A stretch of 46,717 bases of DNA from positions 1 to 46,717 of IMG/VR virus record IMGVR_UViG_3300047552_000200; one strand, written 5' to 3'. This document shows, piece after piece, positions 2,598 to 5,392 of this stretch. The notes beneath the pieces are model-generated. The model saw nothing but the letters and a program-made list of their open reading frames with translations. It made no database searches and was not told the DNA's origin. The translations under genes were made by a program, and so were the position numbers. How positions within the stretch are numbered: position 1 is the first letter of the stretch; every line of letters starts with the position of its first letter. Origin of the DNA: a virus.

Positions 2598-3078
2598 AAA
2601 ACCTGACACTTTAATACAGAGTATCCAACATATAAGAATGGGGCTAGGTCTACCCATCTATAGGACACAATTTGGCCCTAAGCCTCCTGTAGGGTACGTG
2701 TTCAAAGATAATAAGCAAAAGATATTAATCCCGGACATAAGATTATTGAGGTTGCTTAGAAAAGCCTATGAACTCAAAGATGAAGGCTGCTCCTTAGAAG
2801 ATATCTGTAAGTGGATATATATTAATTCTAAGAAACGTATATCCGAGCCATTATTTTCCAGGTTGTATCATAATAGGCCCATATTCAAAGAAATAGAGTT
2901 ACCACTCCGTGAGCGACAAAGACTTTACAAAACCGCCCAAGCCAAAGCAGACGAAGAAAAAGGTCTCTACAAAGACTACCAAGAAGAGGCTGACGAAGAC
3001 ACAGATCTCGATCCAGGAATTCAAGGCGAAGAAGGCGCGGGACAAGGAACTCAAAACTTTATCGCAGAAGGCATCTAG
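2575..3078 (+). CDS. DNA-binding protein resembling a serine-recombinase 'Recombinase' domain, overlapping terL
   Basis: This 167-residue protein lies between TerS and TerL. Residues ~35-105 follow the pattern of the DNA-binding 'Recombinase' domain of large serine recombinases: a Pro-Pro-x-Gly-Tyr start, a hydrophobic helix, Glu-Gly-Cys-Ser-Leu-Glu-Asp-Ile, then a Leu-Tyr-His-Asn-Arg-Pro end. The catalytic resolvase domain is absent, so it is not a recombinase; a role as a packaging or DNA-binding accessory protein is inference. The C-terminal ~45 residues are very acidic and overlap the start of terL by 170 bp in another frame. It overlaps the end of terS by 23 bp. The domain similarity was read by eye and is moderate. 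Confidence 0.6.
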   Translation: MSSAKKRKKPDTLIQSIQHIRMGLGLPIYRTQFGPKPPVGYVFKDNKQKILIPDIRLLRLLRKAYELKDEGCSLEDICKWIYINSKKRISEPLFSRLYHNRPIFKEIELPLRERQRLYKTAQAKADEEKGLYKDYQEEADEDTDLDPGIQGEEGAGQGTQNFIAEGI

Positions 3079-5392
3079 TGGCTTAGAAGATGCTGCCCTA
3101 GTTAAGACTCTTGATGAATCTGTACCTGAAGATGCAAGAGCCGAGATAGGCAGTAGAAAGGTTCTCTGGGAGCCACAATATAATCCTACCACAGGGCGAT
3201 CTCTCCAGAAAGAATTCTTAGAAGCTACCGAAGATGAAGTACTCTACGCAGGTGGTCGTGCCTCCGGTAAATCTTCTGCTCTCTTAGTTGATCCTCTTAG
3301 ATACGTCCATAATCGCAATTTCCGCGGTTTGATTGTCCGTAAAACTATGCCAGAGTTGGCAGAACTTATTGGCAGAGCGAAGATTCTTTACAATGATGCT
3401 TTCCCAGGTGTCCAATGGCGTACCCAGGAAAAGATCTTTAGATTCCCATCTGGGGCAAGAATAGAATTCGGTTACTGCGATACTAAAGATGACGTGGAGC
3501 GCTATCGTGGTCAGGAGTATTGCGTAGGCGTAGACACTCCTATACAGATGCTTAATGGCTCAGCCAAAAGAATAGTCGACATAGTAATAGGTGATTATGT
3601 CTCTACTTTGGAAGGCCCTAAGCGAGTAACTGATATTATTAAACCTTATATGGCCCCTTGTGTTAGGCTTCAAGGTGAGGGCGTTGATCAAATAATGCCA
3701 GTGTGGCACCCCGTTTTAACCTCTTTGGGCTGGCAGTCTTACACATCAATTCTGGGTACCGATTCCACAGAGTTTGAAGAGACATATTTAGAAGGTTCAC
3801 AGCCTCCTTCCGTGGATTGTTTTGTAAAACGTGCAGTATCTGTTCCTCTGATGGTCGTACAGGCAAATGTTTCCATAGAATTCCCTGACGTTTACAAGCA
3901 TGTTGAATCGTTGATGGACTGCAAGTTAAGAGCTTTCCAGCTTGTTGCAGAGACACAGATGAATCCTCAGCCAGTTTCCGTAAATTCTCTACCCAAGTTT
4001 CATCTGCGTCCTTACGTCTATGATGATGAGCTTCTGAGAGGTGAGTGCCATGATCCTTTATCACTTCAAGATTCTCTAAAAGATTATTCTGCTTATTTCC
4101 GTCCTTATGATGTACTATCTCTCTATTCACAAGATAATAACCTAGATGTACTTCCATTATCAGACGATGCTGTAACACGTAGCCTCTTTTATCTCTACTC
4201 TGATGTTCTGGGCAATATTCCTGAATGTAACCATCAGATCGAACATGGCTACCTGCATCCTTACGACGAACTGGAACGGAAGACGGTGTGGGAAAGTTCT
4301 TTAGTGGCATGTAAGATGTCCTATGTTGGATATAAGTTAGTCGCGGATATTACCGTAGATTCGGCTAATCATTATATAACATATAACCAAGGAATAGTCA
4401 ATAAGAATTCCTGGTTGGGTATTGACGAATTAACCATGTTCCCCACAGAGGAAATATATAATGCTCTTAGATCATCTGTACGTTCTACTGATCCTGAGTT
4501 ACGTGCATATACCCGCGCTACCTCTAACCCTTATGGTGTAGGTTTTAACTGGGTTAAGAAGAGATTTATCTCCTTAGGTCCAGAAGGTCAAACTATTAAT
4601 GTCAGCATAGACACACCTATAGGTAAAAGAACTACCACAAGAAAATGGTTCCAATCTAACTACCAGGATAATCCGCTTGTTAAAGAAGAATATATTTCCT
4701 ACCTTGCTTCTCTCCCTGAGAAAATGCGTAAGCGCTGGCTTGAAGGGTCTTGGGATGGTGGTGATGGAGCTGCATTCCCAGATTTTGAACGCTCTATTCA
4801 CGTTATTAAACCCTTTAACATACCCGGTAATTGGCCCCGCTTTCGTGCGATTGACTACGGTTATACAACAATGGGTGTGTGTCTTTGGTTTGCGGTAGAT
4901 CCCGAAGATTGTCTGTATATCTATCGAGAATTAAAAACCACGCTGGTCACGGCGGATGAATTTGCCAAAATGGTACTCAAAGCTGAAAAAGGTGAGTATA
5001 TAAGCTATGGGGTTATAGATGGCTCTATTGGAGCGAATAGAGGAACCACAGATCCTACCTTAGATGAGATTATGAGAAAAGAAGGCTTAATTTGCCGCTA
5101 CTCTGATCGCTCTGCTGGGTCTAGGATGGCTGGGAAAAATCTCATGCACCAATATCTAGCTGAGGATCATAATCTTAAACGCCCTAGGTTACAGATATTT
5201 GATTGCTGTGAAGAATTAATAGACGAACTCAGCTCCCTTCCATCTGGGGAACTTAACCCGGATGATGTACAGAAAAAAGGAGTCGTAGACCATGCCTGGG
5301 ATGCTTGCCGCTATGGCATACTCTCGCGGCCTAAATTCTCCTCTGGTTTTACTTACGAACCTCCTCCTACCCACGATCACTACTTCTTCTAA
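2909..5392 (+). CDS. terL: Large terminase subunit (TerL) containing an intein
   Basis: TerL is the ATP-driven motor and nuclease that packages DNA into proheads. The 827-residue precursor has Walker A Gly-Gly-Arg-Ala-Ser-Gly-Lys-Ser-Ser near residues 114-122. The Walker B motif Trp-Leu-Gly-Ile-Asp-Glu directly follows an intein at residues 205-500. The nuclease domain shows the expected acidic sites: Arg-Ala-Ile-Asp-Tyr-Gly, Val-Ile-Asp-Gly and Val-Asp-His-Ala-Trp-Asp. Intein removal would leave a normal 531-residue TerL. The only usable start before Walker A is a GTG at 2909 with a weak ribosome site, inside the upstream gene. The first ~55 residues are lysine-rich, opposite in charge to the overlapping peptide. 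A +1 frameshift from the upstream frame is an alternative start mechanism. Confidence 0.93.
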   Translation: MSDKDFTKPPKPKQTKKKVSTKTTKKRLTKTQISIQEFKAKKARDKELKTLSQKASSGLEDAALVKTLDESVPEDARAEIGSRKVLWEPQYNPTTGRSLQKEFLEATEDEVLYAGGRASGKSSALLVDPLRYVHNRNFRGLIVRKTMPELAELIGRAKILYNDAFPGVQWRTQEKIFRFPSGARIEFGYCDTKDDVERYRGQEYCVGVDTPIQMLNGSAKRIVDIVIGDYVSTLEGPKRVTDIIKPYMAPCVRLQGEGVDQIMPVWHPVLTSLGWQSYTSILGTDSTEFEETYLEGSQPPSVDCFVKRAVSVPLMVVQANVSIEFPDVYKHVESLMDCKLRAFQLVAETQMNPQPVSVNSLPKFHLRPYVYDDELLRGECHDPLSLQDSLKDYSAYFRPYDVLSLYSQDNNLDVLPLSDDAVTRSLFYLYSDVLGNIPECNHQIEHGYLHPYDELERKTVWESSLVACKMSYVGYKLVADITVDSANHYITYNQGIVNKNSWLGIDELTMFPTEEIYNALRSSVRSTDPELRAYTRATSNPYGVGFNWVKKRFISLGPEGQTINVSIDTPIGKRTTTRKWFQSNYQDNPLVKEEYISYLASLPEKMRKRWLEGSWDGGDGAAFPDFERSIHVIKPFNIPGNWPRFRAIDYGYTTMGVCLWFAVDPEDCLYIYRELKTTLVTADEFAKMVLKAEKGEYISYGVIDGSIGANRGTTDPTLDEIMRKEGLICRYSDRSAGSRMAGKNLMHQYLAEDHNLKRPRLQIFDCCEELIDELSSLPSGELNPDDVQKKGVVDHAWDACRYGILSRPKFSSGFTYEPPPTHDHYFF
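3663..4310 (-). CDS. HNH homing endonuclease encoded antisense inside the terL intein
   Basis: This 215-residue protein lies on the strand opposite the intein. Residues ~25-95 match the phage HNH homing-endonuclease pattern: Asp-Gly-Tyr-Ile, Gly-Tyr-Val-Leu-Gln-His-Arg (His48), Glu-Ile-Val-His-His-Lys-Asp-Gly-Asn-Lys (His67-His68), Asn-Asn...Glu-Asn-Leu-Glu-Val, then Thr-His-Leu-Ser-Glu-Ala-His. Two helix-turn-helix-like segments follow (~118-141 and ~155-185), as expected for DNA-recognition modules of such enzymes. The ATG has an AGGA site 8 nt upstream (4319-4322) and a promoter-like sequence further upstream. All recognisable catalytic residues are present and the frame is uninterrupted, so it is probably active. 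It likely cuts intein-less terL alleles to drive homing; that is inference. Confidence 0.88.
   Translation of the reverse strand: MPLKNFPTPSSVPVRRKDAGSHVRSDGYIQEYCPEHQSRDKRGYVLQHRLIMEVHLGYYLVNREIVHHKDGNKQNNLLENLEVIKDHGTHLSEAHHHRRKDADETWVENLRKLAEDSSVSLQQAGKLLTCSPSTIQHACKRQGILWKHLPVRPSEEQILHVLQNNPRKEAVNLLNMSLQTLWNRYPELMCKTASPKRLKRGATLALFDQRPHLEA
4319..4322 (-). promoter_or_regulatory. Shine-Dalgarno site of the antisense HNH gene
   Basis: AGGA on the minus strand, 8 nt upstream of the ATG at 4310-4308. The spacing is good and decides this start. It lies in sense-strand codons just before intein block F. Confidence 0.6.
4371..4401 (-). promoter_or_regulatory. Putative sigma70 promoter for the antisense HNH gene
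   Basis: Read on the minus strand, TTGACT (4396-4401) is followed after 19 nt by TATAAT (4371-4376). The -35 matches consensus at five of six positions and the -10 is perfect, but the 19-nt spacer is longer than the optimal 17. A shifted TATATA at 17 nt is also possible. Transcription would start near 4364, giving a ~54-nt leader to the HNH ATG. The element lies wholly within codons for intein blocks F and G, so it is constrained by splicing function too. Confidence 0.55.

Follow-up and report, generated by a model that had tools for sequence, protein, structure and literature searches.

Inteins are generally presented as single polypeptides that combine splicing and homing activities, and some nuclear rDNA group I introns carry homing endonuclease genes in antisense orientation. 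The closest described case to the element reported here is that of the ShiLan-type insertions, in which an HNH endonuclease lies out of frame within phage DNA methylases (Arsenault, Gosselin, Gogarten 2025, PMC11855218). In these the HNH is read from the same strand in another frame, the authors found no splicing domain, the distribution is disjunct, and a proline after the site is replaced by serine or threonine in invaded alleles (PMC11855218). The literature that we searched, whose coverage is incomplete so that priority is uncertain, yielded no report of an antisense endonuclease within an intein.

The window, a 46,717-base IMG/VR virus record, encodes a terminase large subunit (TerL) of the HMO-2011-like group, a group of Pelagibacter and Roseobacter phages with which it shares 40-45% identity. 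The original prediction had placed at 3521-4408 of this gene an intein whose homing endonuclease is encoded on the opposite strand. Alignment with the intein-less TerL proteins of HTVC033P, CRP-13 and ctYwJ313 recovered a single insert of exactly 296 residues, and the predicted coordinates are exact. The segment is thus a precise, in-frame insertion in a conserved host protein that is missing in its homologues, and it interrupts TerL at RGQEY/SWLGIDE (here and below a slash marks the junction), directly ahead of the Walker B segment. The features of the locus are as follows:

2909..5392, plus strand: TerL precursor ORF, 827 aa, GTG start (PHROG terminase large subunit, 2.6e-41)
2909-3520 and 4409-5392, plus strand: TerL exteins (40-45% identity to HMO-2011-group TerL over the joined exteins)
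3521..4408, plus strand: intein, 296 aa, Cys1 to Asn296, with Ser at +1 (gap against intein-less homologues; Hint fold)
3521..3760, plus strand: N-terminal splicing half, blocks A and B, residues 1-80, with His63 in HPVLT..GW (pLDDT ~82-96)
3845..4240, plus strand: sense linker, residues 109-240, open and predicted to be disordered (AlphaFold pLDDT ~30)
4241..4408, plus strand: C-terminal splicing half, blocks F and G, VADITVDSANHYITYNQGIVNKN followed by S (pLDDT ~72-95)
3663..4310, minus strand: antisense HNH endonuclease ORF, 215 aa, ATG at 4310, stop at 3663-3665 (HNH_3 and PHROG matches, protected open frame, same-phase homologues)
4056..4172, minus strand: HNH core, residues 47-85, QHR...EIVHHKDGNKQNNLLENLEV (the Pfam HNH_3 stretch)
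3735..4001, minus strand: helical, HTH-like C-terminal tail, residues 104-192, a putative DNA-binding part (AlphaFold helices, pLDDT mostly >80; weak HTH profile matches)
4319..4322, minus strand: AGGA, Shine-Dalgarno-like, 8 nt ahead of the antisense ATG (sequence; weak in the window, stronger in most relatives)

Examination of the plus strand bore out the predicted intein blocks A, B, F and G. The window intein possesses Cys1, the block B His63, the terminal Asn296 and a serine at +1, and the first three of these are invariant in its relatives. More broadly, C1, T6, G24, T29, H63 and W71 of the N-terminal half and D276, N283, H284, Y285, N294 and N296 of the C-terminal half are invariant across 11 homologues. 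The Hint domain is weakly detected with the single sequence (Vint, 0.0016), and the sense-frame single-sequence Pfam matches lie below the curated cut-offs; a family profile of the sense intein recovered PI-SceI block A at 8e-6. The AlphaFold model contains two confident halves (residues 1-80 and ~241-296) separated by a disordered stretch (109-240) opposite the HNH, and its best PDB matches are the inteins Ssp DnaB, M. smegmatis DnaB and gp41-1 (prob 1.00). In block G the penultimate residue is lysine in place of histidine; a penultimate histidine is not essential for every known intein. Profile searches of the sense polypeptide detected no endonuclease profile or domain, in keeping with the original prediction, and where an in-frame homing endonuclease domain would be sought there is a disordered linker. 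Judged by its sequence and its modeled fold, the plus strand of 3521-4408 is a clean class-1-like intein with predicted splicing activity.

The minus strand of the same segment encodes the intact 215-residue HNH protein that had been anticipated (Pfam HNH_3, 5.6e-9; PHROG HNH, 9.1e-16), and the check proposed with the original prediction, a profile search of both strands, placed an HNH on the minus strand and none in the sense frame. The residues that it had singled out, His48, His67-His68 and a Glu-Asn-Leu block, proved correct, with the histidines and asparagines invariant in 11 homologues. The invariant core positions are Q47, H48, R49, E64, V66, H67, H68, N76, N80 and L81, and the ORF thereby combines the HNH_3 profile with the invariant catalytic His and Asn residues of a homing endonuclease of this family. 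Its nearest solved fold is I-HmuI (prob 0.98, though with an E-value of just 0.013). The helix-turn-helix-like tails stood only in part: the model is indeed helical but the HTH profile matches are weak, so that the region is best termed HTH-like.

The window's AGGA is a weak Shine-Dalgarno match (33rd percentile). Most relatives with the insertion at the Walker B site have a Shine-Dalgarno-like sequence 5-10 nt upstream of the antisense ATG, and the site is strong in four of the loci (L100, L101, L104, L119). Together with the layout itself, these sites support the earlier proposal of an endonuclease uncoupled from the spliced protein. The enzyme may be produced from its own message and be separately regulated. 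A scan of the window for minus-strand promoters found nothing above chance. We noticed by eye the string TTGACT-17-TATATA at 4401-4373 and claim no promoter for it because the scan shows no excess.

Roughly a dozen divergent viral lineages share this layout at the TerL site used in the window. Searching IMG/VR with the TerL-junction DNA pattern Y-x-G-x-x-Y/C..DT recovered 7 loci, four of which are TerL inteins at the window's site, all four with an antisense HNH; a modified form of the pattern brought in two more contigs, nearly identical to each other, from a different lineage. A scan with the HNH alignment recovered more TerL inteins of divergent sequence and showed that the P-loop (GGNR/C...HHN/SGKT) is a second site of insertion, in TerL and in one DNA helicase. 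Scanning one genome per species revealed the layout in the cultured Polynucleobacter sp. Tro8-14-1 and in two MAGs, one of Burkholderiaceae and one of Phycisphaeraceae. When the HNH or the complete TerL was run against IMG/VR as a single sequence, nothing was recovered, and in isolate phages the intein protein yielded no more than marginal matches; a scan with an alignment of the TerL exteins, whose pattern reaches across the junction, could therefore return intein-less genes only. The relative phase of the two frames is identical in all 17 compared loci, with sense position 1 opposite antisense position 1 and sense position 2 opposite antisense position 3, and both layout and phase are found in 63 further loci.

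Prevalence was gauged with an HNH-blind sample of at least 80 loci, fetched by a DNA pattern for HHN/SGKT alone. Among the matches listed, 61 of 80 have an antisense HNH, as detected by a profile built from the family itself, which may miss other endonucleases. The remainder of the matches listed comprise 3 that are not inteins and others that are mini-inteins (131-159 aa), truncated contigs or other types. These 61 loci together with L161 and L164 make up the 63, which fall into 37 clusters at 80% identity. We considered ascertainment bias, whereby only loci with an open sense frame are counted, and rejected it: a search of the 2 kb upstream of all 80 HHN/SGKT sites uncovered no extra antisense HNH outside an open frame. 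The host genes tested are TerL or unclassified relatives plus one DNA helicase, in which the antisense HNH occupies an intein at the helicase P-loop rather than in a terminase (L169). Among isolates, the layout is carried by the Pectobacterium brasiliense phages Taid (PQ008975; L285) and Ymer (OP748252; L286). Both records label the intein-containing TerL a "hypothetical protein" and have no annotation for the antisense HNH ORF (242 aa). These Pectobacterium phages and the Polynucleobacter prophage render the antisense-HNH inteins testable. The intein with an opposite-strand HNH is present as first described, and the further check of looking for antisense HNH frames in other phage terL inteins found them repeatedly: it is a recurrent class and not a one-off. 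Mini-inteins without an HNH, of 131-159 aa, also occur at HHN/SGKT (L166, L175, L229, L178, L220, L221, L176, L227 and L234), and they should be useful as ancestral or derived controls.

These inteins are a natural instance of antisense gene overlap that lets selection be measured on either frame. We shuffled synonymous codons of one frame, retaining its protein and codon composition, and counted stops in the partner frame. For the window, none of 3000 shuffles in either direction left the partner open, with ~6.5 stops expected each way. Across 14 loci (the window and 13 others), 5-8 sense stops are expected per locus and none is seen (P <=0.003 each), and the reverse shuffle for antisense stops in the same loci gives P <=0.014 each. 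Likewise, in 37 further lineages ~250 sense and 194 antisense stops are expected, with none seen of either. Both frames are thus under selection.

The substitution pattern reveals how this selection is apportioned. In five close relatives (L088, L094, L118, L119, L153) differences within the overlap concentrate at the third antisense position (sense position 2); between L088 and L094, for instance, sense positions 1, 2 and 3 differ 14, 50 and 15 times. The exteins of the same five display the ordinary position-3 excess. Overlap dN/dS in these relatives is 0.10-0.25 for the antisense and 0.8-1.4 for the sense frame, values that are approximate in overlapping frames and come from non-independent pairs, while the positional asymmetry is model-independent. 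The L113/L114 pair was left out of the codon-position test as too close, and many P-loop pairs show a similar pattern. Moreover, between the window and L092 the antisense protein is 57% identical, against 32% for the sense reading of the same DNA. Therefore, selection acts on the HNH as the product, and the sense linker evolves almost neutrally save for the need to stay open.

The evidence for mobility comes from relatives of the window element, for which our searches gave no close relative. A TerL match is present in 29 of 186 Polynucleobacter genomes; of the alleles examined, 23 are empty and a few are occupied, at ~91-96% protein identity. The +1 residue is proline in all 23 empty alleles (L127-L149) and cysteine, always as the single codon TGC, in all five occupied ones (L088, L094, L118, L119, L153). 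Given this partition, the +1 Cys codon, which supplies the nucleophile required by splicing, appears to have been brought by the element. Between L118 and L119 the intein differs at 38 of 996 nt and the flanking terL at 40 of 354 and 64 of 600 nt (~11%). As the inteins differ less than the flanks, the comparison indicates that the divergence of the host gene predates the movement of this element. At the P-loop site, two genes with 92% identical exteins carry, respectively, a 132-aa mini-intein (L166) and a 293-aa intein with an antisense HNH (L188), and a second such pair (L178/L233) has exteins 86% identical. Since exteins this similar carry an intein with or without the HNH segment, this segment behaves, by its sequence distribution, as a module gained or lost inside the splicing domain. 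Separately, a second copy in Polynucleobacter sp. Tro8-14-1 (L152) is a truncated TerL in which all that is left of the intein is its C-terminal end, a decaying remnant.

We regard it as highly probable that the window harbors a composite mobile element, a splicing mini-intein in TerL with a nested antisense HNH homing gene. Under this model the plus-strand Hint-type mini-intein would excise itself from TerL, and a gene for an HNH_3-family homing endonuclease with its own start codon would be nested between the splicing halves on the opposite strand. The enzyme, translated from a minus-strand message, would cut terL copies lacking the element, and repair from an occupied copy would install intein and endonuclease gene jointly. 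The sense frame across the endonuclease gene would be kept stop-free, so that the precursor remains full-length, with the encoded peptide probably serving as hardly anything but a disordered linker. The data establish the two ORFs, their constant phase, selection on either frame, the Hint and HNH folds, the presence/absence polymorphism and the independent movement of related elements; from these we infer splicing, HNH expression, cleavage of empty terL and homing itself, which accounts best for the observations.

A different account accepts the antisense HNH as real and selected but has it cut elsewhere, as a free-standing-type or packaging HNH for which the intein is a safe landing place. 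HNH proteins of the same family do stand alone in phages, ShiLan-type insertions hold a same-strand HNH, and PMC12613952 (citing Kala et al. 2014) describes HNH proteins adjoining terminases, all of which speaks for this account. Against it, the HNH segment and the intein share host sites across great divergence, and the Polynucleobacter element has diverged less than its host gene, as fits cutting at the intein site; we consider it improbable. It is very unlikely that the insert, rather than being a splicing intein, is tolerated in frame in the way suggested for the ShiLan domain and holds an HNH in a different frame: the sub-threshold Pfam matches and the penultimate lysine would allow it, but Cys1, the block A, B, F and G residues and the terminal asparagine are invariant, occupied alleles have a nucleophile at +1 where empty ones have proline, and the family profile reaches PI-SceI with a confident Hint fold. 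That the antisense ORF is an unused chance or decayed frame is scarcely credible and is contradicted for the class: profile matches reach 1e-16 and better, the catalytic residues are intact, antisense dN/dS is ~0.1-0.25 and no stops occur in >50 lineages; the profile matches and substitution pattern exclude a chance ORF.

On the reading of a mini-intein with a nested antisense homing gene, the homing gene sits apart on the other strand, yet the splicing frame stays open across it. This would explain the many phage TerL inteins of ~300 aa whose endonuclease a sense-frame annotation would miss, and suggests the need for six-frame searches of inteins. A broader proposal, which we advance tentatively as somewhat doubtful, is that such elements form an overlooked large class of phage inteins, dominant at HHN/SGKT-type P-loops, with the endonuclease gene antisense in a mini-intein. 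The two products might then be expressed independently, possibly at different infection times, the minus-strand message might double as an antisense RNA against terL, and the element, coding on both strands, might move as a unit between sites and host genes.

Like the ShiLan-type insertions, the antisense elements are open in the host-gene frame and hide an HNH in a different one, have a disjunct distribution and replace the proline after the site in invaded alleles, and a relationship between the ShiLan HNH and the P-loop-class antisense HNHs is detectable. The window element differs in having its HNH on the minus strand and a complete Hint domain in the insert around it; it has neither the same-strand HNH nor the missing splicing domain of the ShiLan type. 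In L204, L237 and L102 an additional, C-terminal intein of the same TerL contains a same-strand, out-of-frame HNH_3 (Pfam 1e-14, 3e-17 and 2e-13), a sister arrangement to the antisense one, and hidden-frame endonucleases in inteins therefore occur in both orientations. With canonical inteins (PI-SceI; in-frame LAGLIDADG or HNH) the window intein shares the Hint domain, an endonuclease between blocks B and F and insertion at a conserved catalytic site of the host, but its endonuclease lies outside the spliced polypeptide and is read from the other strand. Its sense protein folds as a mini-intein (Ssp DnaB mini-intein, gp41-1), from which the antisense-HNH inteins differ by an extra linker of 130-170 residues that exists only because a gene lies opposite. 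Group I intron HNH enzymes provide the nearest solved fold (I-HmuI) and are likewise self-contained ORFs within a splicing element; here, however, the carrier is predicted to splice as protein, and hence the opposite frame has to stay open. The antisense endonuclease genes of nuclear rDNA group I introns similarly lie opposite the host transcript, but there the intron imposes no reading frame on the other strand.
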